From Pseudomonadota bacterium (GTDB lineage Bacteria > Pseudomonadota > Gammaproteobacteria > Pseudomonadales > Azotimanducaceae), in assembly GCA_022571865.1 (NCBI GenBank), contig JACZXA010000007.1:1-47347 (forward strand): DNA of 47,347 bases. The letters are read 5' to 3'. Positions 6,218 through 22,384 of this stretch are shown here, piece after piece. The notes beneath the pieces are model-generated. The model saw nothing but the letters and a program-made list of their open reading frames with translations. It did no database searches and was not told the DNA's origin. The stretch's first letter is position 1, and the number at the start of each line of letters is the position of its first letter. Position numbers and translations under genes: made by a program.

Positions 6218-7549
6218 TCATTCCCGCCAGGGTTTCGCTTCCAGGTAGGTATCGAGATGCTTCCGAAGCTCCTGCGCAAGCTCGATCTGTTGTTCCGATA
6301 CTAAGGATAGCGCCTGCTCCTGGAATTGGATCGCCTCGGCAAACTGACCCAATTCCGCATGGGCCGCCGCCAGCGTATCGAGGTAGGCGGCGGTACGATT
6401 TTTTTCCACCGCGCGTAACGCATGTTCAAGCGACAACGGGCCGTTGCGAAGCTCTTCCGAGTGGCTGGTGGCCAGCAGCCAGGCATAGTCGTTGTGTGCC
6501 TGAGGATGATCCTGTGCGACCGCTTTTCCAAACCAGTTGAGCGCCTCGGTCTGGGATTCCGCGTTGCCATCGGCGAGTAGCAGGTAGGCGAGTCGCAACT
6601 GGGCAGCGGACAGGCCGGTTTCGGCCCCACGCCGGTACCAGTGTTTGGCGACTTCGAGGTTTTTCGGCATCCCGAGACCCACTTCGGACATGTGCCCGAG
6701 GCTCATGAAACTGGCAGGTGTGTCCTCGGCTGCCGCCTGCTGAAAAAGCTCCAGGGCGCGTTGGTAACTCTGGTTGACTCCGGTGCCGGTGAGATAGGAG
6801 TGACCCAGGCTCACCAGACCCGCACCCGATCCTGCCTCAGCGGCTTGTGTGAACAGTTCTATGGACTTTGCCAGGTCTGCCTCACCGAACTCGCCGTTCT
6901 GGTACATATAGGCAAGCGCGACCAGCGCATCGACTGCCCCGGTGGCATAGGCCTTCTCATACCAGACTTTTGCAGTATCCGGCTCGGGCGTCTCTGCAAC
7001 GCCTTGCCGGTAACTTTTGGCCAGATGGGTCATTGCCGACGTGTGCCCGCTTTCGCTCGCCTGGGAAAGCCAGGTGCGAGCCTCCTCCACGTTTTTCTCT
7101 GTGCCATAACCCCTAAGGAACGCGTAACCCACATGGAACTGGGCCGAAACGTGACCGAGACGCGCGGCTTTCAAGAACAGTTGATAGGCGACAGTTCGAT
7201 CCCGGGTGACCCCTTGTCCGTAAAAATGCAGTCCAGCGAGTGCAGTAATGGCGCTCGGATTATCGGGGTTGAACTCGAGCGCACGGTGGTAATCTTTGCG
7301 AGCCGAAACGAACAGATCCTCCGCGTAAAACGAGTAGCCACGCAGGTAGTAGGCGCGGGCACGTTCGGCTGCACTCAATCGGTGGTCGATTAACGCCGGT
7401 GCTAGATAGGTGCGCGCAAGTGCGAAGCGCCCCTGCTCGATGAGGCTGACGGACCGCTCTACATTCTTATGGGAATCTATTGTCGAGGCGAACGAGCTTG
7501 CCGTCATCAAGAGTGAGAGGTACGTGATCTGACGCAGCCAACGGGTCAT
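6218..7549 (-). CDS. Secreted Sel1/TPR-like repeat protein
   Basis: With the start placed at MTRWLRQITYLSLLMTASSF this is a 443-residue protein with a signal peptide cleaved near residue 22 (SFAS-TIDS). It contains TPR units (RARAYYLRGYSFYAEDLFVS) followed by a run of about eight Sel1-like repeats with the pattern A..LG...A...L...Y..G.G, for example AARLGHVSAQFHVGYAFLRG and EAGSGAGLVSLGHSYLTG. Repeats of this kind form a solenoid that scaffolds protein complexes, usually in the periplasm. The partner is unknown. A start 20 codons upstream is possible but would hide the signal peptide. It is transcribed away from the tmRNA gene. Confidence 0.82.
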   Translation of the reverse strand: MTRWLRQITYLSLLMTASSFASTIDSHKNVERSVSLIEQGRFALARTYLAPALIDHRLSAAERARAYYLRGYSFYAEDLFVSARKDYHRALEFNPDNPSAITALAGLHFYGQGVTRDRTVAYQLFLKAARLGHVSAQFHVGYAFLRGYGTEKNVEEARTWLSQASESGHTSAMTHLAKSYRQGVAETPEPDTAKVWYEKAYATGAVDALVALAYMYQNGEFGEADLAKSIELFTQAAEAGSGAGLVSLGHSYLTGTGVNQSYQRALELFQQAAAEDTPASFMSLGHMSEVGLGMPKNLEVAKHWYRRGAETGLSAAQLRLAYLLLADGNAESQTEALNWFGKAVAQDHPQAHNDYAWLLATSHSEELRNGPLSLEHALRAVEKNRTAAYLDTLAAAHAELGQFAEAIQFQEQALSLVSEQQIELAQELRKHLDTYLEAKPWRE

Positions 7550-7700
7550 CGGGAACTCAACGTCTCCTTTTCGGGTCTGATTATTATGCCGGAATGAGGC
7601 GCGTTGCACGGAATCCGTGGGAATTAGACTGCTGTAAACGTGATAAACTTCACGGTTCCCTTGGCTTGAGGGACGTTAACGCTGCTTTTGCAGTCCACAT

Positions 7701-8056
7701 GGGGGCGACTTGGCTTCGACGTGGGTAGCGGAGCTTGCGGTGCATGCCGAGAGGGTAGTGACTCTCGTAAAACAATCGCTGTAACTTTATATAGTTGCCA
7801 ACGACGAAAACTACGCACTAGCGGCCTAAAACCCGCTTACACCGATGATCAGGGCCTGTGATGAGAACTCGGTGGCAATGTTCGCAGGATCGCGCGGAGG
7901 TCTCGCCCGGGGCCAAAACGTTAAAACCAATCGGGATCGCCCAGAACACCCTGATCGTCGGGTCGTTCACGGGCAAAATTAATAGACGAAGCTAAGCATG
8001 TAGAGCCAATAGCCGAGTGCCAACGGACGCGGGTTCGACTCCCGCCGCCTCCACCA
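7701..8056 (+). ncRNA. ssrA: Transfer-messenger RNA (tmRNA)
   Basis: The 5' end GGGGGCGACTTGGCTTCGAC and the 3' end GGGTTCGACTCCCGCCGCCT with CCACCA form the tRNA-like part: seven acceptor pairs join 7701-7707 with 8046-8052 (one G-U), with discriminator A8053 and an encoded CCA. The tag reading frame at 7797-7829 encodes ANDENYALAA then TAA, the standard proteobacterial degradation tag. The length of 356 bases fits one-piece tmRNA. It rescues stalled ribosomes together with SmpB, whose gene lies 12.4 kb downstream at 20428-20913 on the other strand. Confidence 0.98.
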
Positions 8057-8840: not shown

Positions 8841-9986
8841 TTAGTGGTATCGTCGTTGCAGTTCCCTGTAGGCTTCCTCAACGGCTTCCAGGCTACCAGT
8901 TCCCTCGGCGTGGGCGATTCGCACATCGTAAAACTCGTTACGCAGGCTGTCCTCGATCCAACGGCGTGTCACGGCAACGCGGTGATCAGACTCAACCTTC
9001 CAGGCCGGTCGTGGCGGCGGGAGCGGCTGGTATTCAGGTTGCGGCTGTTGATTCCCACCGCCAGTGTCCGATCCGGAAGTAGACGAATCGTAGTAACCAG
9101 GTGCGGCAAGTTCCGGGATGACGGATTCCACCTCCGGACCTGCTGGATCAGCGCTGAGGTCCAGGGTCGGTGGGTCGATGCGAACCGAGGCGGCTTCGCC
9201 GAAATACGGTCTTATCGTGAGCTCTCCCTCGAACCCGTCCAGATCGTCGTCCTCTGAATCACGCGTATGGGGCTGGTCTTCATAACGCAGCCGAAGCTGG
9301 AATGGGTCTCCAAACGAATACTCGACGTCGAAGTTCGGGCCCGAGTCGGAGTCGTTTTGATCCGCCGGATCATCATCGAATTGAATGCTGGGCGGCTCGA
9401 TGTAGACATCCGAACTGTCTTCTTCGATCAGATAGGAAAGACCGGGCGGTAAGAAACCGTCATCACCTGCGAAGGGTTCCATGGTGAATTGGTGTTCTTC
9501 CTGATCAACCGACCATGCGCCGAAGAGTCCGCCGCTAGGCAGTACGTCCCAGCCGAGTCCCAGACCATCACTCGGAGAACCGGCGTCTTGTGCGGGAGCG
9601 GGCTCGTCTTCCAGACTGGACCAGTCGTAACGCAGCGACAGTTCCAGTCGGTCGCTATAGTCGCCGTAGGAGTACCGTGCCTCGAAGCCGAGATCCGAGC
9701 CGTTCGTATTCGGGATTGAATCCCGACCACCTTCGGCGTATTCGTGGTTGCCTTGTAGCCAGCCGTAAGGCGGGTCAAAGCGCTCAGTTCGCTCTTCGGG
9801 TCGTAGGCTGAGGTTGTAGTCGAAACTCCGCGGACTGGTCGGAAGCGCCTCGATATCGCGGCTGAATTCATATCGGCTACCGGTATCGTAAGCCTGTTGA
9901 GCCGAGGCGGTTGCGGTCGCGGTTGCGGCCAGAACGAAGGCCGCGGTCATACGGAAACTCACGGCGGTAAATAGGGTCAAGGGCAT
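8841..9986 (-). CDS. Secreted acidic protein of unknown family
   Basis: A 381-residue protein with a clear signal peptide (MPLTLFTAVSF then an Ala-Thr-rich core, cleavage near ASA-QQAYD). The mature part is rich in Asp, Glu, Ser, Pro and aromatic residues. It contains alternating beta-like strands in two similar blocks (LGFEARYSYGDYSDRLELSL and FDVEYSFGDPFQLRLRYEDQ), each followed by an Asp/Glu/Pro-rich linker, then a Gly/Gln/Pro linker and a charged helical C-terminus. The alternating pattern could be an outer-membrane or extracellular beta structure; I do not recognise the family. The start is chosen at ATG 9986, preceded by GGAGAT; a start 20 codons upstream is poorer. A copy of the shared ECF-type promoter lies 30-60 bases upstream. 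Confidence 0.72.
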   Translation of the reverse strand: MPLTLFTAVSFRMTAAFVLAATATATASAQQAYDTGSRYEFSRDIEALPTSPRSFDYNLSLRPEERTERFDPPYGWLQGNHEYAEGGRDSIPNTNGSDLGFEARYSYGDYSDRLELSLRYDWSSLEDEPAPAQDAGSPSDGLGLGWDVLPSGGLFGAWSVDQEEHQFTMEPFAGDDGFLPPGLSYLIEEDSSDVYIEPPSIQFDDDPADQNDSDSGPNFDVEYSFGDPFQLRLRYEDQPHTRDSEDDDLDGFEGELTIRPYFGEAASVRIDPPTLDLSADPAGPEVESVIPELAAPGYYDSSTSGSDTGGGNQQPQPEYQPLPPPRPAWKVESDHRVAVTRRWIEDSLRNEFYDVRIAHAEGTGSLEAVEEAYRELQRRYH

Positions 9987-10016
9987 AACTATCTCCACAT
10001 TGGTTGCAGTCTCGAG

Positions 10017-10046
10017 TGGGTCACAGCAGGCGCGCAACAGGTTCAA
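10017..10046 (-). promoter_or_regulatory. Putative ECF-sigma promoter, site 1 (ahead of the secreted acidic protein)
   Basis: On the minus strand the site reads TTGAACC, 15 bases, then GTGACCCA. It matches five other sites in this block in both boxes and in exact spacing. It ends 31 bases before the chosen ATG at 9986. Confidence 0.72.
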
Positions 10047-10160
10047 TTCGGCGAAAATAAAGCTTCTGGTTCACCAGAGTTCTGCTGCGGCTATGGACGC
10101 ATTATTTTGGTAAAGCGGTGTCTGACATCGACATCGCTTTACCGGGTTAATGGTTGATCG

Positions 10161-10328
10161 CTACCAGCTGTAACGAGCCTCACCTCTGGCCAATCGGCGA
10201 TCCACTTCCTGCCAGGCGTATTGTCGTGCGCAATTCTCGTTGTGGGTGTCGTCCATCCACAAAGACAAGAGCTTCCGCTCGGAGTCTGTCTCGGACATCG
10301 CTATGAGTCTCTCTCTTACGGTCGTCAT
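10161..10328 (-). CDS. Small conserved-looking cytoplasmic protein, unknown function
   Basis: A 55-residue charged helical protein, MTTVRERLIAMSETDSERKL followed by LSLWMDDTHNENC and an Arg-rich end. It has no signal peptide or membrane segment. The start at ATG 10328 follows GGAG at eight bases; a longer frame starting at 10385 has no such site. I do not recognise the family. Its placement behind one of the shared ECF-type promoter sites and beside the divergent sigma gene suggests that it belongs to the same regulon and may have a regulatory or chaperone role, which is inference. It is shorter than most gene finders report, so it could be overlooked in other genomes. Confidence 0.62.
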   Translation of the reverse strand: MTTVRERLIAMSETDSERKLLSLWMDDTHNENCARQYAWQEVDRRLARGEARYSW

Positions 10329-10399
10329 GATGTTGTCTCCTCTCTCAAGCTTTCGTTGAGAGTTGTTGAATTTGGTAAAAATCATGTGCTCTCACCGTT

Positions 10400-10429
10400 T
10401 GGGTAACGGTCTTTGCCAGATAGGTTCAA
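10400..10429 (-). promoter_or_regulatory. Putative ECF-sigma promoter, site 2 (ahead of the 55-residue gene)
   Basis: On the minus strand it reads TTGAACC, 15 bases, GTTACCCA. It ends about 70 bases before ATG 10328. Confidence 0.72.
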
Positions 10430-10657
10430 AACGAGTGTGTGAACCGCGGATAGGGCTTGCGAACAGCAGCACTAAGTGTTTTGAGGACCTGAATATCTGG
10501 TTTATTGGCGCTTTTTCGCTGTTGAAACGGGTCTAAGGCGGGCGTTTAATGGTCTCGATAGGGGGAAATGGCACAGTTCATCCGTAACACTTTTGCAGGA
10601 TGGCAATTGCCGTGGGATGTTCGTTGCCAGCAGATACGGCCTTTGGGCTGTGAGTGA

Positions 10658-10687
10658 TTGAACCGTTTTTCCCTGAGTGGTTACTCA
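10658..10687 (+). promoter_or_regulatory. Putative autoregulatory ECF-sigma promoter, site 3 (ahead of the sigma operon)
   Basis: It reads TTGAACC, 15 bases, GTTACTCA, and ends 54 bases before the sigma-factor ATG at 10742. ECF factors commonly transcribe their own operon, so a shared motif here supports the view that this factor is the one that recognises the motif. Confidence 0.78.
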
Positions 10688-10741
10688 ACCGTTGGATGCA
10701 TTGATTTAGCAATCCGTATGAGGAACATCAGGTAGCGCTGC

Positions 10742-11347
10742 ATGGTAGACACCGATCCCGCCCGCGATGCTGATATCGACCTGGTTGCCCGCATTGCGAC
10801 CGGCGATAAGCAGGCATTTGAAACCCTGTTTACCAGCTATGGTGAGCGGGTTTTTCGCTATGCGCACCGTCTGATCCACGATGTTCCCAAGGCGGAGGAG
10901 GTAACCAACGACGTGATGATTGAAGTATGGAAAAACGCCGCAAAGTTCGAAGGTCGATCGAAGGTCTCTACCTGGATCCTCGGCATAACCCGGCATTTAG
11001 CGCTGAATGCGGTACGAGGTAAGAAGTTCGACACGGTAGACGTCGACTCGGCACCCGAGATCGTCGACCCGGGGTTAAGCGCGGAACGCGATAGCGTTGC
11101 CGGTGAACGCGAGGATCTGAAGCAGAAGTTACGCCAGGCGCTTGGCCGGTTGTCTGCCGATCACCGCGACGTCATTGAACTCACTTTTTTTCAGGGCTGC
11201 TCATACCAGGAGATTGCGGCAATCGTCGGCTGTCCGGAAAATACGGTTAAAACCCGAATGTTCCATGCCCGGAAACAACTGCACGGTATCTTGTCGGGTC
11301 TTGGCCTCGATGCAGGCTCCTATGGTGCGGAAGGGGTGGCGATATGA
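10742..11347 (+). CDS. ECF-family RNA polymerase sigma factor
   Basis: A 201-residue sigma-70 family factor of the extracytoplasmic function type, with only regions 2 and 4. Region 2 is seen at about residues 20-90 (AFETLFTSYGERVFRYAHRL, then KAEEVTNDVMIEVWKNA and STWILGITRHLALNAVR). Region 4, a helix-turn-helix, is at about 130-185 (LSADHRDVIELTFFQGCSY then QEIAAIVGCPENTVKTRMFH). It redirects RNA polymerase to a specific promoter set when released from its anti-sigma factor. The stop overlaps the start of the anti-sigma gene (ATGA), which ensures matched production. A shared ECF-type promoter lies directly upstream. The ECF subgroup cannot be assigned here. Confidence 0.94.
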   Translation: MVDTDPARDADIDLVARIATGDKQAFETLFTSYGERVFRYAHRLIHDVPKAEEVTNDVMIEVWKNAAKFEGRSKVSTWILGITRHLALNAVRGKKFDTVDVDSAPEIVDPGLSAERDSVAGEREDLKQKLRQALGRLSADHRDVIELTFFQGCSYQEIAAIVGCPENTVKTRMFHARKQLHGILSGLGLDAGSYGAEGVAI

Positions 11348-12024
11348 ACCATCGTGAAGTCGAAGCGCTGTTGCCCTGGTTCGCAGCCGGTACCCTGGAA
11401 GCGACAGAAACCATGGCGGTGGAAACCCATGTGGCCGATTGTGAGCAATGTGCGGTGGAACTTGCTGAACTCGGGTTTCTCAACGAGGCGGTTATGGAGC
11501 ACGGAGCCGAGGAACCGGCGTACGACCCCGAGATCCTCACCGCTGCCCTGAAACAGATCGATGCGATCGAGGCCCGGGACGAGGGGGAGATTATCGTCGG
11601 CGAAGTGCCCGGGCGGTTCAGGGCTTTGTTCCAGGGTCTTGTCGAACGATTGCAGTGGAGCATGACGCCGCCTCTCGCAAGAATCGCCATCGGCGCGCAG
11701 TTTGCGCTGGTATTGGGATTGGTCGTGGCGCTCAACTCAGGCCAAACGCCTGAGCAACCGCTACATGATGTGGTTGCTACCGAACAAAGGGGTGACTACA
11801 CCCTGGGTTTTGCGCCCGGGGTGAGTGAACTACAGATCCGCACGCTGTTGTTGGAGTCCAACGCCACCATCATAGGCGGGCCCAGCTCGATCGGGTTCTA
11901 CGTCATCGATATCGATGACAATGTGGATGAAGCCGCAGCCGTTGCCAGGATCCGTGCAAGTGGGCTCAGCGCATTCCTGCAACCGGTTCCGCAAGCATCG
12001 CTCGATACCGGACCGGCTCCATGA
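11344..12024 (+). CDS. Membrane-anchored zinc-binding anti-sigma factor with an extracytoplasmic domain
   Basis: A 226-residue protein with three parts. The N-terminal anti-sigma domain has the zinc motif HVADCEQC (His29, Cys33, Cys36). A single membrane helix follows at about residues 113-130. The C-terminal domain, about residues 150-216, should lie in the periplasm. This last part (YTLGFAPGVSELQIRTLLLE then a beta strand and a second helix ending AFLQPVP) has the beta-alpha-beta-beta-alpha-beta pattern of subtilisin propeptide-like domains, which is inference. Such a domain could interact with the two subtilisin-like proteases encoded next. Start and stop overlap both neighbours by four bases. 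Release of the sigma factor by proteolysis of this protein is the expected control step. Confidence 0.86.
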   Translation: MNHREVEALLPWFAAGTLEATETMAVETHVADCEQCAVELAELGFLNEAVMEHGAEEPAYDPEILTAALKQIDAIEARDEGEIIVGEVPGRFRALFQGLVERLQWSMTPPLARIAIGAQFALVLGLVVALNSGQTPEQPLHDVVATEQRGDYTLGFAPGVSELQIRTLLLESNATIIGGPSSIGFYVIDIDDNVDEAAAVARIRASGLSAFLQPVPQASLDTGPAP

Positions 12025-13787
12025 GATGGGTTTTAGTGGCTGCACTTAACTTCGGTCTTGTCTGGGCGATGGATGGTTTGGCCGAGGAGGGCGAAACCGC
12101 GGGAACGGACGCAGTCGCAACGGAGCTTGCGATAGAAGATCAGGTAGATTCGAGCGGCGTCGTGGACGATCAGGCTAGCCCCGATGTTGAGACCGTGCCG
12201 CGACGGTCGTTTCCAGACGACCCCTTCTACCACACGGAAGGTTCGTGGGAGCAGGACTTCGCCGATCAGTGGGCGCTTCGAGACCTGCGCGTATACACCG
12301 ACGTGGCGTTGTCCTTCGGGCATGGCCGGCGGGAGGCCCGACGAGTTGTAGACCCTGTGAGTGTCGAACCCATTGATGAACCCCAGCCGGCAGGTCCGGT
12401 ATTAGTGGATACACCGGATGGTCCGGCGCTGGTTTTTCTCAATCCTCCCGCAATCAAACCAGTAGTAACCTCTGATACGGTTGCGGAGGTGGCTCCGGTA
12501 ATTGTTGCGGTCATCGATACCGGTGTGGACTATCTGCACCCGGACTTCGGCGCGGACCATCTATGGCGCAACCCGAACGAGAAACGCAACGGCCGTGACG
12601 ACGATGACAACGGCTTCGTGGATGATCTGATCGGTTGGAACTTTGTCGATAATTCCAATAACCCCTGGGATCGCAGTGGTCACGGCACTCACATCATAGG
12701 GATCATCACGGCGTGCACCGATAACGGGCTCGGCATCTCCGCGATCAATCCCGATGCGGTGGTGATGCCGCTCAAGGTGGGTAACTTTGTCGGTCAGGCG
12801 CGCAGCTCGGCGGTTGCCGGAGCCATCTATTATGCGGTGGACAACGGTGCGCGAATCATCAACTTGAGCCTCGGCGGTGAGGTGGTCACTCAGGCTGAAC
12901 GTCTGGCGTCACAATACGCGGCCGACAACGACGTGCTCATCGTTGTGAGTGCCGGTAACAAAGGGTTCAAGGCGTCGAGTTTCGGCTATCCAAGCCTTCC
13001 GAATGTACTTGTCGTCGGCGCGAGCGACATCTCAGGCGATCGGGCCGGGTTTTCCAATTTCGGTGCGGAGGTGGAGTTGCTGGCCCCAGGAGTGGACGTC
13101 TTGTCGCTCAGGGCGCGGGATACGGACTTTATTGCGCTGTCCGATCCACCTGATTATCCCGAAGGCTCGGCCGTTGTCGGCGATGATGAAAACTACTATC
13201 GGGCAAGTGGTACTTCCTTCGCCGCGGCAATCGTGACCGGCATTGCGTCGCGTTTGATGACGTTGCGCCCGGAGCTGACCACCAGACAGGTTCGGCGAAT
13301 GCTCGTACACAATGCCATCGACGTAGGCGTGCCAGGTGTGGATCAACGTTCCGGGTACGGTCGAGTGGATCTCATCAGGGCACTGGGTGCAGACCCGGAG
13401 GTTTTCATTGAGGCACAGATTTCCAAGGTAGATCTGCAACTGCTCGATGAGCAGGTTTTGTTGAAGATCATAGGCACGGCAAACGCGGATAATTTTGCCT
13501 CGGCTCATACAGAAGTCATTCCCTGGAGCAACGCAGATCAGGTTCAATCCGAGCAACCATTGCAGGCTGACGCAGCTTGGCAGCGTTTTGGCAGCGCGCT
13601 GACCCAGCCAGTATTGAACGGTCAGCTTGCCGAAATGAATCTCGAAACGCTCATCCTGATGACGGGCGGCGCTAGATCCTGGCAGGTCCGGGTGGTGGTT
13701 GAACATGCTAACGGTGAGATCCGGGAATCGAGGATGGTGCTGGCGTTGCCAGAGCCTCCGACCTACGGAGGAGCACCCGGTGAATAA
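12021..13787 (+). CDS. Secreted subtilisin-family (S8) serine protease 1
   Basis: A 588-residue protein with an N-terminal signal peptide (MRWVLVAALNFGLVWAMDGL). The S8 catalytic triad is Asp166 in VIDTGVDYLHP, His221 in SGHGTHIIG and Ser399 in SGTSFAAAIVTG, with the oxyanion Asn313 in SAGNKG. The segment FPDDPFYHTEGSWEQDFADQ, typical of the start of mature subtilases, occurs at about 64-83. A Pro-rich insert of about 60 residues separates it from the Asp motif. I see no clear inhibitor-I9 propeptide before it. A C-terminal domain of about 130 residues follows the catalytic core. It is coupled to the anti-sigma gene by a four-base overlap and to the next protease by eight bases. It probably acts in the periplasm or outside the cell; the substrate is unknown. 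Confidence 0.93.
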   Translation: MRWVLVAALNFGLVWAMDGLAEEGETAGTDAVATELAIEDQVDSSGVVDDQASPDVETVPRRSFPDDPFYHTEGSWEQDFADQWALRDLRVYTDVALSFGHGRREARRVVDPVSVEPIDEPQPAGPVLVDTPDGPALVFLNPPAIKPVVTSDTVAEVAPVIVAVIDTGVDYLHPDFGADHLWRNPNEKRNGRDDDDNGFVDDLIGWNFVDNSNNPWDRSGHGTHIIGIITACTDNGLGISAINPDAVVMPLKVGNFVGQARSSAVAGAIYYAVDNGARIINLSLGGEVVTQAERLASQYAADNDVLIVVSAGNKGFKASSFGYPSLPNVLVVGASDISGDRAGFSNFGAEVELLAPGVDVLSLRARDTDFIALSDPPDYPEGSAVVGDDENYYRASGTSFAAAIVTGIASRLMTLRPELTTRQVRRMLVHNAIDVGVPGVDQRSGYGRVDLIRALGADPEVFIEAQISKVDLQLLDEQVLLKIIGTANADNFASAHTEVIPWSNADQVQSEQPLQADAAWQRFGSALTQPVLNGQLAEMNLETLILMTGGARSWQVRVVVEHANGEIRESRMVLALPEPPTYGGAPGE

Positions 13788-15696
13788 CAGGCACATTTTG
13801 GTATTGATGTTCTGCGTAACATCCGGGGCGTTACAGGCGGATCCTAAAAGCGACTGGGAGGCACCCTTCGACATTGTTCTGCCCGAGCCTGCGCGCAACA
13901 TCCTGCTGAAAGCGAGCGTCAATGCGGCTGACTGGGCGCGTAACCAGGGTATTGAAACATTTTCTCTGATCCCACGCGGCCCGCAAGGCACGATCCTCGA
14001 GACTCGGCTCAACGAAGACGAGTGGCGCCACCTCGAGGCTCGGGTCTGCACAGATCCAGGGGTTGATGGTTGTGAAACCGTCGCTTGCCAGACCATTCAG
14101 TTTGAGGGAGAGGTTACTGCCGGCGCTGACAGCGCGCAGACGCTCAAAGGCCGCCTCGTCAAAAATTCACCCGAGTTGTTACCCGTGCCCGACGACGCGA
14201 ATCTCGAGGCGGTTTCCTGCGCACGCACTCCGCTGCTGGCGGGTCTCAACGCTGCAGGAACAGGTGAACAGAATCTGGTTCTCGATCTGGAATTTATCAG
14301 TGACAGGAGTTCTGACAAGACGTTGGACGCCACACCTCAACAAGCTCCCGATGAAAGTGTACAAACCGCCGATGCCGAACTTGGAGGAAAGCGCGCTTTC
14401 GAGTTCAGTCTCAAGTCCACATTTACCGGCAGCGGGTCGGTCCGTTTCGATGCCGAACAGCTACCCGCAGATACCAGTGATTGGACTTTGGTTGTTGGCG
14501 TTGGCTGTAATGAAGTTTCAGTCCCGCTCAATTCCCTCGCTCCGGCAAGAGCGCCGGGTCAGGTAGCGGCAATCGTGGACGCGGGTGCCAGTGCGGCAAT
14601 TGCCGCGACGTTCAACCTTACCGTCGTGCGCGAAGTAACACTCGCGACCACTAACGAAACGCTCGCTGTGTTTGCAACGGCGGACAATATTTTTGCCTTG
14701 ATCGCCGCACTCGTACTCGACCCTAGAGTAGCGAGCGCCCAGCCAGACTATATTTATACGACCACGGCAACCCCGGTACATTCCGACCCGTTCGCTTCGT
14801 TCGTTTATGGACCGGAAATGATCGGCGCACTTGCGCTTCACGATGACGCAACCGGAAAGGGTCAGCTCGTGGCGGTGATCGACACAGGCGTCGATGTTGA
14901 ACATCCGGAACTCACAGGCAGAATCAGAGAATTCATCGATGTCACCGGCAAGGGTTGGACCGCGGACGTTCACGGCACGGCAATAGCCGGCATCATCGCC
15001 GCAAACGCCGATAACGGGGAAGGTGGATACGGCGTGGCGCCCGAGGCAGACATCCTGGCAATTAAAGCCTGCCAGCCGAAAACTGCCGGTGGGATTGCTG
15101 CGCGATGCTGGACGAGCACACTCGTAGCGGCGCTGGACCTCGCCATGACGAAGGACGCGAGCATAATCAACATGAGCCTGGCCGGTCCACCGGATGAATT
15201 GGTCGAACGTTACGTTCGACTGGCGATCGGGCAGAATCGCCTGGTTGTAGCGGCTGCAGGAAATGGGGGTCCCGAGGCAAAACAGAGTTATCCAGCGGCA
15301 ATTCCCACCGTACTCGCTGTCACAGCGATCGATTCGGCAAACAGGCGCTACCGCGATGCAAATCTTGGCGAATTTATCGACGTGGCAGCTCCGGGTGTGG
15401 ATATCGTCAGTCCGACACCCAACAATCAGTATCCGCCTTTATCCGGGACTTCCATGGCGGCCGCACACGTAAGCGGCGTGGCCGCACTCCTGCGTGAACT
15501 TGTTCCCCTGTTGAGTAGCGCCGAGCTACGCGCAATCCTGAAGACAGAGGTCGTAGATCTCGGAGTGGCAGGTCGCGATGCCGAGTTTGGTGCGGGGTTG
15601 ATAGACGCCTGTGCCGCCGTTAAGTTGATGACCGCTGATGCGGTCGTATGCACCGAAGAGGGAGAGACTCATGAGCTCGACAGCCCTTCAATCTAA
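13780..15696 (+). CDS. Secreted subtilisin-family (S8) serine protease 2 with long N-terminal region
   Basis: A 638-residue protein when started at GTG 13780, chosen because GGAGGAG lies six bases upstream and a signal peptide (NNRHILVLMFCVTSGALQA) begins right there. About residues 25-255 are an unrecognised region with two similar beta-rich blocks containing cysteines. About 261-325 resembles a fervidolysin-type propeptide and ends RVASAQPDYIYTT. The catalytic domain follows with Asp368 in VAVIDTGVDVEHP, His398 in DVHGTAIAG, Asn495 in AAGNGGP and Ser558 in SGTSMAAAHVSG. All catalytic residues are present. It shares the operon with protease 1, and both may process exported proteins of the block or the anti-sigma factor. 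Confidence 0.92.
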   Translation: MNNRHILVLMFCVTSGALQADPKSDWEAPFDIVLPEPARNILLKASVNAADWARNQGIETFSLIPRGPQGTILETRLNEDEWRHLEARVCTDPGVDGCETVACQTIQFEGEVTAGADSAQTLKGRLVKNSPELLPVPDDANLEAVSCARTPLLAGLNAAGTGEQNLVLDLEFISDRSSDKTLDATPQQAPDESVQTADAELGGKRAFEFSLKSTFTGSGSVRFDAEQLPADTSDWTLVVGVGCNEVSVPLNSLAPARAPGQVAAIVDAGASAAIAATFNLTVVREVTLATTNETLAVFATADNIFALIAALVLDPRVASAQPDYIYTTTATPVHSDPFASFVYGPEMIGALALHDDATGKGQLVAVIDTGVDVEHPELTGRIREFIDVTGKGWTADVHGTAIAGIIAANADNGEGGYGVAPEADILAIKACQPKTAGGIAARCWTSTLVAALDLAMTKDASIINMSLAGPPDELVERYVRLAIGQNRLVVAAAGNGGPEAKQSYPAAIPTVLAVTAIDSANRRYRDANLGEFIDVAAPGVDIVSPTPNNQYPPLSGTSMAAAHVSGVAALLRELVPLLSSAELRAILKTEVVDLGVAGRDAEFGAGLIDACAAVKLMTADAVVCTEEGETHELDSPSI

Positions 15697-16702
15697 GATG
15701 GGGGTATTTGCGTTAGCTACGGCGATCCTCGCGTTTTCCTCCTCGGCGGGAGCTCGAGCGGATGCTTTCATCCCCTCCAGTGACAAGGGCGGATTCCAGT
15801 ATTCCGAACCAATGGATTGGCCGGAGCTGACACTGGATCTTTCCGCTATCGAGCGGCAGGTGGCGGAGGCCGCTCGTTTGCGCTGTGGTACCGCGTTGGC
15901 GGCAGCACCACTCGATCTTGGTGACGCCAACAGTTTCATGGGCGACATGATGGGCAAGGTCGCCAGTGCCGCGGTCGGCAAATTGCTGGGTAGCGTGTTT
16001 GGCGGTGGCGGTGGCTCCTCCAAGCAGAAGAAACCCAGGATGTTCAAGGACCCCATCAAGAAAAAGTATAAAACTCGATTCGAAGATCCCGAAGGTAAAG
16101 TACGCGTTCTTGTGGGCGGAAAACAGTACGACGACGGCCTGTTGTTGAGTGCTCGAGTAGATAAAGCTCGCGGTAAGGGGACTTTTCATACGATGTTTCT
16201 GGAGCGTCCGGATTGTACCCGCATCTGGCCCATTCAATACCTGGGTTACAGCATGTGGGGCAACTGGAGCCTTTCTGTTTCAGTCACCAAAACCACCAGC
16301 ACCTACCGCGATAGCCAGTTGATTGATCGTAGCGTAGAGCGTTCCGGCTGGTCCAAATCCGGCGACTTCGACTTTTCCCGGGGATTTTCCGTGTGGGATC
16401 AGCTCGATGACGAGAGCCGCATGGTGTTGGACCCGAATGAAGCGTTCAAGAATCAGCTGCGTACCGAGATTGGTGACCCCGCGTGGCGGCAGATGGGCTA
16501 CGCCCGGCCGACAGAAGGTATTCGCTCCGCCGGTGGGTTGTTCCGGGTGGACCCGGCAGAACTCACACCCGGGACCATTGCGGTCATCCACATCACCAAC
16601 GTTGAGGCGGGTCGTTACCGAACCGTGGGCTTCCCGTTTCATTTCTCCGCAGGAGAGGATGGCATGCTCACTTTGGAGCAGCTTGATACTGCGGGAATCT
16701 GA
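15671..16702 (+). CDS. Secreted protein of unknown family, last gene of the sigma operon
   Basis: A 343-residue protein. The start at ATG 15671 follows GGGAGAG and lies inside the end of the protease 2 gene (26-base overlap); an alternative Met nine codons later would also keep the signal peptide (GVFALATAILAFSSSAGARA). The mature protein has an N-terminal helical region, a glycine run (VFGGGGGSS) at about 112-120, a Lys-rich patch (KQKKPRMFKDPIKKKYK), and a long beta-rich part with many Ser, Thr and Trp residues (SMWGNWSLSVSVTKTTSTYR). I do not recognise it. Co-translation with the proteases suggests that it is a substrate, partner or surface component. Confidence 0.74.
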   Translation: MSSTALQSKMGVFALATAILAFSSSAGARADAFIPSSDKGGFQYSEPMDWPELTLDLSAIERQVAEAARLRCGTALAAAPLDLGDANSFMGDMMGKVASAAVGKLLGSVFGGGGGSSKQKKPRMFKDPIKKKYKTRFEDPEGKVRVLVGGKQYDDGLLLSARVDKARGKGTFHTMFLERPDCTRIWPIQYLGYSMWGNWSLSVSVTKTTSTYRDSQLIDRSVERSGWSKSGDFDFSRGFSVWDQLDDESRMVLDPNEAFKNQLRTEIGDPAWRQMGYARPTEGIRSAGGLFRVDPAELTPGTIAVIHITNVEAGRYRTVGFPFHFSAGEDGMLTLEQLDTAGI

Positions 16703-16895
16703 CGAAAACTAAATCCATGAGAGACTTCATGCGCTGAATTCTCGATTCTATCGTTCCTAAAACAGAACGCGTACGTGTGTGGTCTCGTGTCTGACTGATT
16801 CTTTTTGAACCTCCCCACCTCTCCTCGTTACTCAACGGGTAAGGCAACTTGTAGTCGCCGAAATCATGTAACGAAAACTCAAGGAGAGTATTTCT
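16703..16895 (+). other. Intergenic spacer with promoter
   Basis: These 193 bases hold no gene and no clear terminator. The shared ECF-type promoter at 16805-16834 is the only recognisable signal, with a ribosome-binding site (AAGGAGAG) just before the ATG at 16896. Confidence 0.5.
16805..16834 (+). promoter_or_regulatory. Putative ECF-sigma promoter, site 4 (ahead of the low-complexity secreted protein)
   Basis: It reads TTGAACC, 15 bases, GTTACTCA. Outside the spacer it is identical to site 3 over both boxes and also in the two following bases (AC). It ends 61 bases before ATG 16896. Confidence 0.78.
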
Positions 16896-17582
16896 ATGAA
16901 ACCTTTCATTCTTGCTTCCAGCGTCGTTCTCGCTGGCGCCCTTTTCGTTTCGGCGGGTGCCCAGGCCGATAGCCCCTACCCGTTGTGGATGTCTCAGGAC
17001 GACAACAGCGTAAAGATCAGCGATTCGTTGAACCGAACCTCTACGTATGCGCCGGTATCAACCTATGCGCCCGTGTCTGACGACGACACCACCACGACAA
17101 CGACCACAACAACCTCTTCGGACGACGACTTCTGGTACAGCAACCGTCAATGGTGGAGCACCGATTTACGGTTCACTCAGCAGACGCCCACCGTCACCTC
17201 CTACGACGATATCGATCAGCGCGGCCACACGGGTTATAACGGTGCTTCCAGCAGTGCATCTGGCCCCATAACCGCAGTACGCGGTGGACCGACCAATGTA
17301 GTCGCCGGTAACGAGCAGACGACGGTTTTCGGTCACCAGATCACCAACATCAACCAGAATCCGAGCAACACGGCCGTTGTGGGTGGCGATGCTTATGGTC
17401 TCGTCCAGTCCATCCGCATGGCGGCTGGTGATATGGACTCCCCAAGAGGCATTTTTGGATCTGAAATCGGTCGCACCAGCGCCGATATCTATGCTCCGGT
17501 ATCGAGCGGCGCTAGCGCCAACCAGGCACAGAGCGGGCCCGTCAGCAACTCTGTTGTAGACCCGGTTGATATCAGCTTCTAA
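16896..17582 (+). CDS. Secreted low-complexity protein with YAPVS repeats
   Basis: A 228-residue protein with a standard signal peptide (MKPFILASSVVLAGALFVSA, cleavage near AQA-DSPYP). The mature part carries TSTYAPVSTYAPVSDDD, then nine consecutive Thr, SSDDD, an aromatic stretch (FWYSNRQWWS), and a Gly/Asn/Gln/Ser-rich C-terminal half (NVVAGNEQTTVFGHQITNIN). A third YAPVS copy lies near the end. The composition fits an extracellular structural or adhesive protein. I do not see the CsgA-type curlin repeat. It has its own ECF-type promoter and a strong terminator, so it may be the most abundantly made protein of the block. The family is not recognised. Confidence 0.76.
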   Translation: MKPFILASSVVLAGALFVSAGAQADSPYPLWMSQDDNSVKISDSLNRTSTYAPVSTYAPVSDDDTTTTTTTTTSSDDDFWYSNRQWWSTDLRFTQQTPTVTSYDDIDQRGHTGYNGASSSASGPITAVRGGPTNVVAGNEQTTVFGHQITNINQNPSNTAVVGGDAYGLVQSIRMAAGDMDSPRGIFGSEIGRTSADIYAPVSSGASANQAQSGPVSNSVVDPVDISF

Positions 17583-17600
17583 GAACCCTCCCTATCCACT

Positions 17601-17623
17601 GGGGGCTTCGGCCCCCTTTTTTT
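17601..17623 (+). terminator. Strong rho-independent terminator with UUCG loop
   Basis: A perfect GGGGGC/GCCCCC stem is closed by a TTCG tetraloop and followed by seven T residues. It ends transcription of the low-complexity secreted protein and separates it from the three genes that follow, perhaps with partial read-through. Confidence 0.92.
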
Positions 17624-17650
17624 ACCTTCATACACGTAACCGGAGGCATC

Positions 17651-18061
17651 ATGAAAAAACTAACTTTTCTCGTCGGGTTCATCCTGGTTTGCACGATGCC
17701 GAGTCTCGTACTGGCGGATCAGGAAGCAGATCAGAAGATGCTGAAGCGCCTTTATGAGGTGCGGATGCGCCTGGATCGGGATCGCCTACAGGCCGACAAC
17801 GAAGCCCGCGCCAATGTGCGTCTCCTTGCCCAGGGCAGATCCATAGCCACCCGGGCAGATAACCCCACCGTGACTCAGATGCGCAACGACATGCGGTTTC
17901 AACTCGCCCAGTTCGCAAACAGCTTCCGTTGTCTGGATGTAGATGTGGAGAACAACGGTGGCAACACCGTAGTCATCTGTGGCGACAACAACGGCAGCGT
18001 TAGCGCTGAGAACACGATTGCCGGAGACGACATCATCACGCTCGTAGGAGGTAACCGATGA
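17651..18061 (+). CDS. Small secreted protein, unknown family (CsgG-neighbour 1)
   Basis: A 136-residue protein with a signal peptide (MKKLTFLVGFILVCTMPSLV, cleavage near LA-DQEAD). The mature N-terminal half is a charged helix (about 25-65). The C-terminal part has two cysteines that could pair (RCLDVD and VICGDN) in an Asn/Gly-rich segment (ENNGGNTVVICGDNNGSVSA) that suggests a beta structure. A good ribosome site (CGGAGG) precedes the ATG. The stop overlaps the next gene (ATGA). Position just upstream of a CsgG-family gene suggests an exported or accessory component, as with small partners of curli and holdfast systems; that is inference from context only. Confidence 0.72.
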   Translation: MKKLTFLVGFILVCTMPSLVLADQEADQKMLKRLYEVRMRLDRDRLQADNEARANVRLLAQGRSIATRADNPTVTQMRNDMRFQLAQFANSFRCLDVDVENNGGNTVVICGDNNGSVSAENTIAGDDIITLVGGNR

Positions 18062-18351
18062 GCCTACCGAAGAAATTGTTAGTTGCCGGGCTGGTCCTCG
18101 CGAGCAGCAACCTCCAGGCGATCCCCCCTGTGCATCATGGAATTGTCGTCGTGGCCGAGTATCGTTTCGACCCAGCGGTGCAACGGTATATGGCCGAGCG
18201 TGAGCTGAAGGCTCTGCCAATCAGCGGCGGCCGGTTGTTTTACCTCGTGCCCGCGTTCAGCGACCCCCTGATCGAGGAAATGCAGATCCGCTACATCGAA
18301 CAGTTGCTGGATAAGCGCCGACCTATTGAACCTCAGGAACGCCAACCGTGA
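18058..18351 (+). CDS. Small secreted protein, unknown family (CsgG-neighbour 2)
   Basis: A 97-residue protein with a signal peptide (LPKKLLVAGLVLASSNLQA). The remainder, about 77 residues, has a short beta strand (GIVVVAEYRF) followed by amphipathic helices (AVQRYMAERELKAL and IEEMQIRYIEQLLDKRRP). It is translationally coupled to the previous gene by a four-base overlap, with a ribosome site (GTAGGAGG) inside that gene. The function is not recognised. The end of the gene contains the shared ECF-type promoter that probably serves the CsgG-family gene. Confidence 0.7.
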   Translation: MSLPKKLLVAGLVLASSNLQAIPPVHHGIVVVAEYRFDPAVQRYMAERELKALPISGGRLFYLVPAFSDPLIEEMQIRYIEQLLDKRRPIEPQERQP

Positions 18352-18355
18352 CCTA
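18326..18355 (+). promoter_or_regulatory. Putative ECF-sigma promoter, site 5 (ahead of the CsgG-family gene)
   Basis: It reads TTGAACC, 15 bases, GTGACCTA, and lies across the last codons of the preceding gene. It ends 40 bases before ATG 18396. It is the weakest match in the -10 box but the -35 box and spacing are exact. Confidence 0.6.
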
Positions 18356-18395
18356 TGTGCCAGATACCGAATTAGCAACCCTGTAGGGGACAAAC

Positions 18396-19397
18396 ATGAA
18401 AATCAATCTTCGACTGGTGGTACTGACCATCATAGCCGTCGCCGCAGCCATTCTTAGCGCAGTTGCGGAAGCCCGAACTCGCGACAATGGCCAACCGAGA
18501 CTCGAGCCGGAGGAAGTTCAAGCGCGGCTTCAGGAGCTGGATTGTCCCCGACCTAAGCCACGAGTAGCCATTTACAGCTTCAACGCGACAGGGAAACTCG
18601 CTGCTTTTGAAGGTTACAACGTTGGCGATGGCCTTGCGGCTCAGCTGGCGACCGAACTGACCCGTACCGGATGTTTCATCGTCCTCGACAGAACCGGACT
18701 GTCCAACGTGTTGCGCGAACAGGAAATGACGCTTGCAGGTGTGGTCAACCGCGAGACCGGTGCCCAAGCCGGGCGGGTGATCGGGGCAGAAGTCATCATC
18801 AAGGGCACCGTTACCGAATTTGAGCCCAACAAGCGCGGACGTGGTTTGACTCTGGGACTTGGTTTGCCGAACACGCCGCTCGGTATTCGCCTTGGTCGCA
18901 ATAGCGCGACCGCACACGTCGCGCTCGACCTGAGCATCGTCGATGCCACAACGGGCCGAGTGAAGTTTGCCCACCGGGTGGAGGCGGATTCCAAGTCGGG
19001 AGGTTGGACCATTGGACTCGACTACAAACGTGGCAGCATCGGTGGAGACACGTTTTCCAAATCCCCCCTTGGCATGGCGTCGCGCAACGCGCTTGGCGAG
19101 GCGATCCTGCACATTGCAGCTGATTTGCGGGGGATGCCCTGGCGTGGCCGGGTCGTTGATTCCTCAGAGAACATGATCTTTTTGAACGCCGGGCTCGATA
19201 GTGGAATCCGCGAGGGGGACACCTACCGTGTCTCGACCGTTGTGCGGACATTGATCGATCCTTCGACCGGGCTGCTGCTCGACAACATCGAACGCGAAGT
19301 CGGCCGGGTGCGGATCGTATCGGTAAAAAGCAAATATTCGATTGCCGAGCCGATTGATGGAATTCGGGTGAAACGAGGTGATTACGTACACCTTTAG
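18396..19397 (+). CDS. CsgG-family secretion/surface-assembly protein
   Basis: A 333-residue protein with an N-terminal signal or anchor (about residues 1-25) and a CsgG domain at about 50-245. The domain shows RVAIYSFNATGKL, then GDGLAAQLATELTRTGCFIV, VLREQEMTLAGVV, IGAEVIIKGTVTEFEP and HVALDLSIVDATTGRV, the order seen in CsgG and HfaB. A C-terminal part of about 80 residues (GRVVDSSENMIFLNAGLDSG then REGDTYRV and VKRGDYVHL) resembles the FlgT-C-like domain that follows some CsgG domains. E. coli CsgG is a lipoprotein pore for curlin; here the signal sequence has no lipobox cysteine, so membrane insertion may differ. The substrate is likely one of the secreted proteins of this block. Confidence 0.85.
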   Translation: MKINLRLVVLTIIAVAAAILSAVAEARTRDNGQPRLEPEEVQARLQELDCPRPKPRVAIYSFNATGKLAAFEGYNVGDGLAAQLATELTRTGCFIVLDRTGLSNVLREQEMTLAGVVNRETGAQAGRVIGAEVIIKGTVTEFEPNKRGRGLTLGLGLPNTPLGIRLGRNSATAHVALDLSIVDATTGRVKFAHRVEADSKSGGWTIGLDYKRGSIGGDTFSKSPLGMASRNALGEAILHIAADLRGMPWRGRVVDSSENMIFLNAGLDSGIREGDTYRVSTVVRTLIDPSTGLLLDNIEREVGRVRIVSVKSKYSIAEPIDGIRVKRGDYVHL

Positions 19398-19493
19398 ACG
19401 ACGGGCACGGCTCGATCGTCCCATTGGAACTACGCTGGACGAACCCGTTTGGAACACCCCTGCCGGACCTCATTGAGGAACTGCGGGGTTTTC

Positions 19494-19512
19494 TACCCTC
19501 GGGGTAATTTTT
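19494..19512 (+). terminator. Possible weak terminator after the CsgG-family gene
   Basis: A five-pair stem TACCC/GGGTA with a three-base loop is followed by ATTTTT. The stem is short, and the T run overlaps the next promoter box. Confidence 0.4.
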
Positions 19513-19540
19513 GAACCTGATTCTCACTGCCTGCCACTCA
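19511..19540 (+). promoter_or_regulatory. Putative ECF-sigma promoter, site 6 (ahead of the membrane miniprotein)
   Basis: It reads TTGAACC, 15 bases, GCCACTCA, and ends 32 bases before ATG 19573. The -35 box and spacing are exact; two bases of the -10 box differ from sites 3 and 4. Confidence 0.65.
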
Positions 19541-19572: not shown

Positions 19573-19737
19573 ATGTCAGCAGCAATCATCATCGCAACAA
19601 TGGGAAGCGCTTTCGTACTGATGATCGTCGTCAAGCACATCAGAGATCTGCTGCACCAACGCGAACGAACGTTGATGGCGTATAAGCGTACCCGCATGCG
19701 CCAGGAGCTAGTCCGGTTTGTCCGGGCCCATCGTTAA
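19573..19737 (+). CDS. Membrane miniprotein (54 residues), unknown function
   Basis: A short frame MSAAIIIATMGSAFVLMIVV continues with KHIRDLLHQRERTLMAYKR and an Arg-rich end. One hydrophobic helix (about residues 3-20) is followed by a basic amphipathic helix, a type II-like small membrane protein of the kind that modulates larger membrane proteins or sensors. Evidence that it is real: a ribosome site (GAGGAGATCAGGG) right before the ATG, a shared ECF-type promoter 32 bases upstream, and no competing frame. The family is not recognised. Its end at 19737 leaves 169 bases before ribH. Confidence 0.6.
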   Translation: MSAAIIIATMGSAFVLMIVVKHIRDLLHQRERTLMAYKRTRMRQELVRFVRAHR

Positions 19738-20427: not shown

Positions 20428-20913
20428 CTAAAGGGTCTGCTTCATTAAACGCGCCTTCTGACGACTCCAATCTTTGTCTTTCAGGTCCGCGCGCTTGTCA
20501 TATTGTTTCTTACCTTTGGCAAGCGCGATCTCGCACTTGACCTTGTTGCCCTTCCAATAAAGAGCCGTGGCGATGCAGGCGAAGCCTTTCTGCTGTGTCG
20601 CCGAAAATAGACGGGCGAGTTCTCTCGAGTGGAGCAGCAGCTTGCGCGTCCGCTGCGGATCGGCGACCACGTGTGTGGAGGCGCTGGGTAGCGGCGTAAT
20701 GGTGGCACCGAGCAACCACGCCTCCCCGTTACGAAGCAGCACGTAGCTATCGGGAAGCTGCGCTTTACCCGCGCGCATGCTCTTCACCTCCCAGCCTTCT
20801 AGAACCAAACCCGCTTCGAATCGCTCTTCCAGGTGATAGTCGAACTTCGCTCGCTTGTTCAATGCGATGGTGTTGGTGAGTGCACGTTTCTTTTTGGTGG
20901 TCTTTTTCGCCAT
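20428..20913 (-). CDS. smpB: SsrA-binding protein SmpB
   Basis: A 161-residue RNA-binding protein required to load tmRNA into stalled ribosomes. Recognisable segments are [49 protein letters not shown], the [12 protein letters not shown] core and the basic C-terminal tail [20 protein letters not shown] that enters the decoding site. The start is set at [11 protein letters not shown], which matches the family; the frame continues upstream for about 59 codons but that part overlaps the divergent transporter gene and is not family-like. In many relatives smpB adjoins ssrA; here they are separated by the accessory block. Confidence 0.97.
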
Positions 20914-20995
20914 GCATAGATTATAGGGGTGCGGTTGTGACGGTAATAGCGTTGCGCCACAATGCGCCGCCAACGGGGTGTGCATTGGGGCAGAG

Positions 20996-22384
20996 ATGGC
21001 GAAAGATACCGAATCCAGGCATGGCATGTGGTCCAGCAGCTGGATCTTTGTTCTGGCGGCTGCGGGTTCCGCCGTTGGTCTGGGGAACATCTGGAAATTT
21101 CCCTACATCACCGGCGAAAACGGTGGTGGGGCTTTTGTTTTGCTCTATCTGGGATGCGTCACACTCGTGGGTATTCCGATCATGATGGCCGAAGTGCTGA
21201 TCGGTCGCGAAGGCCGTTACAGCCCCATCAACACGGTGCGTGCGCTGATTCAGCAGCATAAGAGCAGTTCCATGTGGGTGATCATCGGCTGGATGGGCAT
21301 GTTGGCCGGTTTTCTCATTCTCTCCTACTACGCGGTGATCGCCGGCTGGGCCCTTCACTACATCGTGCAGTTGGCGAATGGCAGCTTCGATGGGGCAACC
21401 GCCGAATTTGCCAACGATGCGTTTGATAGCTTTCTTGCGGATCCCTGGCGCATGGTTTTCTGGCAGACCGTATTTATGGTCGCGACGATATTCATTGTCG
21501 CTCGTGGAGTGACGAAAGGGCTGGAAACAGCCATCCGTTGGTTCATGCCGATGTTGTTGATCCTACTTGTCGTGTTGCTGGGCTATGGAGTTACCTCCGG
21601 TGGATTCGAACAAGGCTTCGATTTCATGTTCAGCTTCCACTGGGAAAGCGTCACGGCCGAGTCGGTGCTCATCGCCATGGGTCAGGCGTTTTTCACCTTG
21701 AGCCTTGGCATGGGTGCCATCATGGCTTACGGCGCTTACATGCCGAGCAACGCGTCCATAACCAAAACGGTGGTAACCATAGCGGTGCTGGATACGGTCG
21801 TCGCCATCGCAGCGGGGTTGGCCATCTTTCCGATCGTATTTGCCAACGGGTTGGAGCCGAGCCAGGGTCCAGGGCTCATGTTCGTGACGATCCCGCTGGC
21901 ATTCGGCCAGATGCCGTTGGGAGCCTTGTTTGGTGTAGTTTTCTTCACGCTGGTGAGTTTTGCGGCGATCACTTCGGCCATCTCGCTCACCGAACCGGCA
22001 CTTGCTTATCTGGTGGAAGAATACAATGCCAAGCGTTGGCGCGTGGCAGTCTCTGTGGGCGTCATCTGCTGGGTGCTGGGAATAGGCACCGTATTGTCAT
22101 TCAACCTCTGGTCAGAAACCTACGTTGTGGGTGAACTGACCTTCTGCGGGTTCATCGACTATGTTTCTCAGAACATCATGTTGCCTCTTGGTGGCGTGCT
22201 CATCGCGTTGTTTGCCGCGTACGGGTTGCCGAACACCGTGGTTGGGTCCCAGCTTGGATTGCGGGAAGGTCCATTTGCCTTACTCTGGAAGGTCGTAATC
22301 GGGTTTATTGCGCCGGTGGCTGTACTCATCGTGCTCATTGCGCCGATTTTCGACGTTGTTCTGGAATTCTTGGGCCTTGGCTGA
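20996..22384 (+). CDS. Sodium-dependent transporter, NSS/SNF family
   Basis: A 462-residue integral membrane protein with about 11-12 hydrophobic helices. The N-terminal sodium and substrate site is classical: [19 protein letters not shown], with [10 protein letters not shown] following, and the central [18 protein letters not shown] motif. Members move amino acids or related compounds into the cell with sodium; the substrate cannot be told. The start is ATG 20996 after GGGGCAGAG; six more codons upstream are open but lack a ribosome site. It is divergent from smpB and lies 70 bases before rnfH. Confidence 0.92.

Follow-up and report, generated by a model that had tools for sequence, protein, structure and literature searches.

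Six motif copies around an ECF sigma factor gene: candidate promoters of a probable autoregulated regulon with a CsgG-family exporter in an Azotimanducaceae bacterium

We analyzed a 47,347-nt stretch of the Azotimanducaceae assembly GCA_022571865.1 (contig JACZXA010000007.1; the whole stretch is called "the window" below), in which six copies of a two-box motif lie around the gene for an extracytoplasmic function (ECF) sigma factor. The locus also encodes an anti-sigma factor, two subtilases, secreted-looking proteins and a CsgG-family protein. Signal peptides and membrane stretches were assigned by visual inspection. The features are, in order of position:

8841..9986, minus strand: 381-residue protein with a signal-like N-terminus; ATG start, GTG at 9998 possible
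10017..10046, minus strand: candidate promoter site 1, TTGAACC-N15-GTGACCCA; ahead of the gene for the 381-residue protein
10161..10328, minus strand: 55-residue protein, divergent from the sigma gene
10400..10429, minus strand: candidate promoter site 2, TTGAACC-N15-GTTACCCA; ahead of the gene for the 55-residue protein
10658..10687, plus strand: candidate promoter site 3, TTGAACC-N15-GTTACTCA; ahead of the ECF sigma operon
10742..11347, plus strand: ECF sigma factor, 201 residues; Pfam Sigma70_r2 1.4e-14, r4_2 9.3e-17
11344..12024, plus strand: anti-sigma factor, 226 residues; zf-HC2 at residues 4-37, predicted helix 110-131, outer domain about 149-222
12021..13787, plus strand: subtilase A (S8; Pfam), propeptide not recognisable
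13780..15696, plus strand: subtilase B (S8), long N-terminal region ahead of the catalytic domain; GTG start inferred
15638..16702, plus strand: conserved secreted-looking protein, encoded by the final gene of the sigma operon; translation from 15638 or from a later ATG
16805..16834, plus strand: candidate promoter site 4, TTGAACC-N15-GTTACTCA; ahead of the gene for the 228-residue protein
16896..17582, plus strand: 228-residue secreted-looking protein
17651..18061, plus strand: 136-residue secreted-looking protein with a conserved GNTVVICG motif
18058..18351, plus strand: 97-residue secreted-looking protein
18326..18355, plus strand: candidate promoter site 5, TTGAACC-N15-GTGACCTA; overlaps the 3' end of the 97-residue gene, ahead of the csgG-like gene
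18396..19397, plus strand: CsgG-family protein, 333 residues; Pfam CsgG 1.9e-34, PDB CsgG 7.9e-7
19511..19540, plus strand: candidate promoter site 6, TTGAACC-N15-GCCACTCA, with a variant -10 box; ahead of the gene for the 54-residue protein
19573..19737, plus strand: 54-residue protein with a hydrophobic stretch

The sigma protein scores 100.2 bits against the sigma70-ECF model (cut-off 42.9). Its gene is tightly packed with those for the anti-sigma factor, subtilases A and B and the protein starting at 15638, and the inner genes of this operon have no upstream motif.

The motif searched was TTGAACC, exactly 15 bases, and GNNAC[CT][CT]A. It has six exact matches in the window and none in 100 dinucleotide shuffles. 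An earlier account made from the letters alone (the sequence-only reading) had listed six sites at these positions and on these strands, each 30-75 bases from a gene start and one ahead of the ECF sigma gene. This description holds, and the measured distances to the start codons are 30-71 bases, i.e. 30 for the 381-residue gene (to the ATG at 9986), 71 for the 55-residue gene, 54 for the sigma gene, 61 for the gene at 16896, 40 for the csgG-like gene and 32 for the 54-residue gene. TTGAACC by itself occurs 16 times in the window, so that 10 copies lack the second box; the sequence-only reading had mentioned such copies, for example inside motB and infB. The spacer sequences differ among the six sites, and the boxes alone are kept. 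The second box is GTKACYYA at five sites and GCCACTCA at the sixth, the ortholog of which in genome G017 also contains GCCAC. A better consensus for the putative promoters is TGAACC-N15-GTKACYYA, with a GCCAC variant. Of the motif as first proposed, the 15-base spacing has stood, whereas the first T varies among relatives and the second box had to be refined.

The genome itself is a draft of 4.56 Mb in 315 contigs (93% complete), and the window is one of these contigs. Scanning all of it, which the sequence-only reading had named as a check, yielded eight exact matches, six of which cluster in this locus, and one match for the reversed pattern used as a control. Under random placement, the probability that at least five of the other seven sites fall within 9.5 kb of a given site is about 3e-11. 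One outside site, C257:1078, falls within a gene and differs in both relatives from the same genus; it is therefore probably a chance match. The other one (C86:48695, i.e. L001:1501-1530) precedes a 36-residue open reading frame (ORF) with a hydrophobic end; no matching DNA was found in two same-genus genomes, both of which are incomplete, so that this result has little weight.

The second check named by that reading was conservation at orthologous loci. In a search of 200 genomes of the family with the anti-sigma factor, 38 matched, and 20 regions were fetched. Ten of these have the same operon (class A, L039-L048; L039, L040 and L042 are cut by contig ends), and ten have genes for a sigma factor, an anti-sigma factor and one subtilase (class B, L049-L058). 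In class A, the motif precedes the sigma gene, the gene for the 228-residue secreted-looking protein and the csgG-like gene, and the spacer is 15 bases throughout. Including further loci, the motif-bearing orthologous promoters number 11 for sigma, 13 for the secreted-protein gene and 12 for the csgG-like gene, and no copy of these three genes is without a site where upstream DNA is available. The pattern demanded TGAACC, so that the constancy of this box is by construction, and the weight lies in the fact that no copy lacks a site. For sigma, the site is found at 11 of the 11 class-A genes with available upstream DNA, with C instead of the first T in L048. For the csgG-like gene it is present in 12 of 12 cases, once as GCCAC, and only seven of these sites keep the first T of TTGAACC. 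The 55-residue gene has a site at all five homologs found, the window's included, and for the 54-residue gene two sites were counted among the loci. The sigma gene of L039 starts at the very edge of its contig and was not scored as a miss (its upstream part is in L072), and the secreted-protein gene of L045 was counted with the site ahead of a longer ORF, as the shorter start lies too far downstream.

For comparison, the other genes of the same loci were searched, and none of the 46 upstream regions contains the motif at up to two mismatches. Two of these regions match at three mismatches (the 97-residue gene of L039 and the 15638-type gene of L048), and another two, both from L042, derive from incomplete ORFs of a single subtilase. 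Of the 11 sigma promoters, 8 have T as third base of the putative -10 box, and so have 10 of the 13 secreted-protein promoters; among the 12 csgG-like promoters, 11 have G and the remaining one reads GCCAC. The base thus tends to follow the target gene, which suggests graded promoter strengths.

The tally over the 200 genomes showed at least one pattern match in 46 of them. Class A, delimited by gene content, comprises 11 of these genomes and has 50 matches (41 GTKAC, 6 GCCAC and 3 others), and the remaining 189 genomes have 44 (7 GTKAC, 2 GCCAC and 35 others). At least two GTKAC sites are present in 9 of the 11 genomes with the locus versus none of the 189 others. The exceptions within class A are G048, with its locus cut by a contig end, and G005, the sites of which have another first base or GCCAC. 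In a relative found by a scan of GTDB (G200, locus L085; one of its contigs measures 4.65 Mb) there are ten sites, all of them GTKAC, and no control match. Four are in the locus and six elsewhere; there is no convincing gene behind two of the sites (L092 and L093). The sites outside the locus in G047, G066, G156, G171 and G200 are mostly ahead of plausible genes, several of which encode a signal-like start. The 381-residue protein of the window has no Pfam family above its cut-off, and it matches the products of motif-bearing distal genes in G156 and G200 (blastp, E 1e-3). A gene for 67 or 70 residues was found in 2 of 12 genomes, with a site in both. In G047 (locus L061), sigma and the exporter module are on different contigs, and the module keeps both of its sites.

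More distant sigma genes were also inspected, i.e. those of class B and of loci from a search of 369 genomes (37 sigma genes). TGAACC is found upstream on the coding strand for 12 of the 37 and on the other strand for 4, and 500 mononucleotide shuffles gave a mean of 1.7 and a maximum of 10. Among 16 TGAAC[CT] sites with the same spacing to the second box, this box has A at position 4 in 14 cases and at position 8 in 15; without three near-duplicates the values are 11 and 12 of 13. The distant -10 box reads NGGA[CT] in 8 of the 16 sites versus GTKAC in class A. By this comparison, part of the wider sigma family shares the putative -35 box and the spacing and differs in the putative -10 box, which is expected if the sigma factor itself reads the site. 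The count is partly exploratory, because the wider-family promoter was first noticed in class-B upstream DNA and then counted. By hand tally, TGAACC accompanies 11 of 18 sigma factors with the recognition helix NTVKTR and none of 7 with GTVKTR (one other type was omitted). A link between helix type and -35 box was set aside as proof, as the class-A locus L048 combines GTVKTR with TGAACC.

The second gene of the operon encodes a candidate regulator of the sigma factor. The zf-HC2 domain of the anti-sigma factor is matched with 5e-7, as it is in 19 of 19 members of alignment A1, the window's included (L044 was omitted from alignment A2), and its H-x3-C-x2-C zinc motif reads HVADCEQC. The predicted helix 110-131 is taken to span the membrane. 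The structural model has a mean predicted local distance difference test (pLDDT) value of 73.0; its outer domain has the order b-a-b-b-a-b, with blocks of 89-93 and one of 76. With VIA-align, the N-terminal domain resembles RslA (Z 8.0), ChrR (7.7) and RsiW (6.7). The outer domain resembles subtilisin propeptides (Z 7.5, 7.5, 7.2 and 7.2), including 1scj_B at Z 7.5 with a root-mean-square deviation (rmsd) of 3.1 over 67 aligned residues. PF22148, the fervidolysin prodomain, matches 4 of 10 class-A anti-sigma orthologs, at best with 4e-5.

The adjacent subtilase A has no propeptide recognisable in Pfam and profile searches. In class A its signal-like start leads into an NDPxY...DQWAL stretch, which we take, by comparison with known subtilases, to be the mature start of the enzyme. 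The catalytic domain as delimited by Pfam starts at residue 62-74 in L041, L044, L046 and L047, and later, after low-complexity stretches, in the window, L039, L040 and L043. Class-B subtilases have about 150 residues ahead of the catalytic domain. A subtilase adjoins the anti-sigma gene in 10 of 10 fetched class-A loci. Among 369 Gammaproteobacteria genomes, the anti-sigma profile has matches in 29 (our own included), some of which cover just the N-terminal part, and a subtilase is adjacent in 17 of these 29 loci, in two cases via partial or overlapping ORFs. From the models, the PF22148 matches and this adjacency, we lean, by a small measure, towards an outer domain that would act as a trans propeptide for subtilase A, and the cleavage or release of which would free sigma. 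We infer that the protease and the anti-sigma factor would together form the sensor.

Several results weigh against this proposal. The propeptide Z-scores stay below 8, and unrelated ferredoxin-like folds reach 6.4-6.8. A Foldseek search with the anti-sigma model gave no match at E 0.001; the unrelated EF-1 beta leads (0.019), followed by pro-subtilisin and propeptides at 0.037 or above. The window's own anti-sigma factor has no PF22148 match, and the zinc motif is lost in six relatives (L041, L042 and L044-L047), though the domain is kept. The outer-domain profile found nothing better than E 0.02 in the subtilases of both classes, off the propeptide position, so that a pairing of domain and proteases does not follow from sequence alone. 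Lastly, class-B subtilases have no Pfam prodomain either, and the missing Pfam match in subtilase A is therefore weak evidence.

These values would also be compatible with an unrelated sensor domain of ferredoxin-like fold, the subtilases being effectors of the regulon outside the switch. This explanation is somewhat doubtful, and still a serious one. The fold is common, as the scores of non-propeptide chains and the top of the Foldseek list illustrate, and subtilase B and the class-B subtilases have a long N-terminal region of their own. In contrast, the PF22148 matches among the orthologs, the recurrent adjacency of anti-sigma and subtilase genes in the distant loci, and a subtilase A without a visible propeptide all argue against it.

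For the six sites, a chance origin is rejected from the shuffles, the own-genome control, the 200-genome tally and the clustering probability. They are very probably promoters read by the ECF sigma factor encoded at 10742-11347, which would make up an autoregulated regulon around a CsgG-family exporter. By position and conservation, TGAACC is the predicted -35 element and GTKAC, or rarely GCCAC, the predicted -10 element, with a fixed 15-base spacer. We infer binding of the motif by this sigma factor from the same comparisons. The sequence-only reading had proposed a "local ECF-sigma regulon". The regulon and its autoregulation are supported by the orthologous promoters, the empty control regions and the tally; the word "local" is not, as relatives have sites elsewhere.

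Some observations do not fit easily. Allowing one mismatch in the own genome gave seven matches, all of them exact, and added no site, at a control value of 4. Nine of the matches in class-A genomes are not GTKAC, seven of the 189 genomes without the locus hold one GTKAC site each, and G048 has no site, its locus being cut by a contig end. Furthermore, 25 of the 37 distant sigma genes have no upstream TGAACC.

Alternatively, the sites might bind a transcription factor as tandem half-sites (TGAACC and TKACYY, 22-23 bases apart) and not be promoters. The two boxes are indeed alike, and their distance is about two helical turns. We consider this very unlikely, because the site is oriented towards the gene at conserved targets, distances of 30-32 bases to the start codon leave no room for a downstream promoter, the motif accompanies a sigma gene that itself carries it, and box and spacing recur ahead of some distant sigma genes of the family. 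There is an even slimmer chance that another ECF sigma factor of the same cell reads the sites and that the present one is merely one of its targets. Paralogous ECF genes, 45-49% identical, do adjoin the locus in G156, G171 and G102 (second ECF genes of relatives lie at L044:6678-7211, L047:7048-7575 and L046:12073-12618). However, no paralog was seen in the window between 7000 and 23000 or in seven other class-A regions, these seven carry the motif with the exception of the cut locus L040, and the genome tally of sites follows this locus. That the six copies are non-regulatory remnants of a duplicated DNA repeat, as six near-identical boxes within 9.5 kb might suggest, is hardly credible, because the spacers are unrelated with only the boxes kept and the same genes are preceded by a site in several genera.

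With the sites taken as promoters of this sigma factor, sigma would turn on its own operon, i.e. the genes for sigma, anti-sigma, the two subtilases and the protein at 15638. It would also turn on the secreted-looking proteins of 16896-18351, the small flanking genes and the CsgG-family exporter, for which there would be an additional, separate promoter. What the regulon puts out is probably an assembly at the surface or outside the cell, exported through a CsgG-type pore. The membrane anti-sigma factor would hold sigma via its zf-HC2 domain, and the outer domain would dock in trans, as a propeptide, on subtilase A, which has no recognisable one. Once the protease matured or met its trigger, it would cut or free this domain, the anti-sigma factor would be degraded, and the released sigma would in turn raise expression of its operon as well as that of the secreted proteins and the exporter.

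A broader proposal, which we make tentatively and at slightly less than even chances, is a distinct kind of ECF switch, in which the anti-sigma factor carries, outside the membrane, the lost propeptide of a neighbouring subtilase. This domain would help to fold or inhibit the protease and would also be its first substrate, and extracellular protease maturation itself would be the signal. The literature searches bearing on this listed nothing on propeptide-bearing anti-sigma factors. In this reading, a three-gene module of sigma, anti-sigma with such a domain and subtilase would recur across the class, partly with a shared TGAACC-N15 promoter. If true, a trans propeptide on an anti-sigma factor would be a simple conversion of outside protease activity into gene expression. 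Enough genomes of the class show the pairing of anti-sigma and subtilase for a test in cultured species to be conceivable. With the promoter consensus, likely targets of this sigma factor can be listed in related genomes; the consensus would also connect the export module of the CsgG-family protein with an ECF switch.

Further observations concern the neighbouring genes. The 228-residue-type proteins of several relatives contain many SEDND(V/Y) repeats, which are not present in the window's protein, and L085 has this gene in two tandem copies, each with its own putative promoter. The 15638-type gene was found at 11 loci in GTDB genome contigs. The model of its product is poor (mean pLDDT 61.7); a pore-forming protein was discarded as a candidate (Foldseek TM-scores of about 0.1-0.25, rmsd of at least 16), and so were the matches from a PDB profile search. 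The locus is flanked by the tmRNA gene (7701-8056) and its partner gene smpB (20428-21090). As ribH and smpB were not found in the 20 related stretches searched, the gene cluster may have been inserted here, between the tmRNA gene and smpB. A Sel1-repeat-like protein is encoded nearby (6218-7609), and 7 of 10 class-B loci have similar sequences next to them.

The CsgG-family protein links the locus to export systems such as curli (CsgG) and the holdfast anchor HfaB. NCBIfam models for CsgG and HfaB match it far below their cut-offs. No Pfam or NCBIfam match to CsgA, CsgB, CsgE or CsgF was found in four neighbours, i.e. the products of the genes at 15638 (for NCBIfam from 15674), 16896, 17651 and 18058, and the window's CsgG-like protein has no lipobox cysteine near the end of its signal-like stretch (AVAEARTR). 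With neither a Csg partner in the genes tested nor a lipobox in the window protein, the locus is not filed as curli. Unlike in curli, the csgG-like gene lies behind a predicted ECF-type promoter.

The ECF54 group is described as having a carboxypeptidase, a subtilase and CHAT proteins in its gene context and no anti-sigma factor (PMC8999054). In gene context, the present locus resembles that description in the subtilase of the neighbourhood, and it differs from it in the anti-sigma gene of the operon.

The closest parallels are the pairs of an ECF sigma factor and an anti-sigma factor of the ChrR, RslA or RsiW type. Sigma regions 2 and 4, the fold of the anti-sigma domain and a putative two-box promoter ahead of the sigma gene itself are shared with them. 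In contrast to these pairs, the outer domain is propeptide-like, the next gene encodes a subtilase, and zinc residues are missing in some orthologs. For the proposed pairing of protease and helper, the subtilase of Aeromonas sobria offers a precedent. It lacks a propeptide of its own. Like subtilase A in our proposal, this serine protease has a separate chaperone protein, ORF2 (PDB 3wqb), chain B of which is among the Foldseek matches of the anti-sigma model (E 0.20). ORF2 is a free helper protein, whereas here an anti-sigma factor would supply the helper as its outer part. The hypothetical sensor module would be the unusual part of the locus, and the regulon itself would be ordinary in kind.

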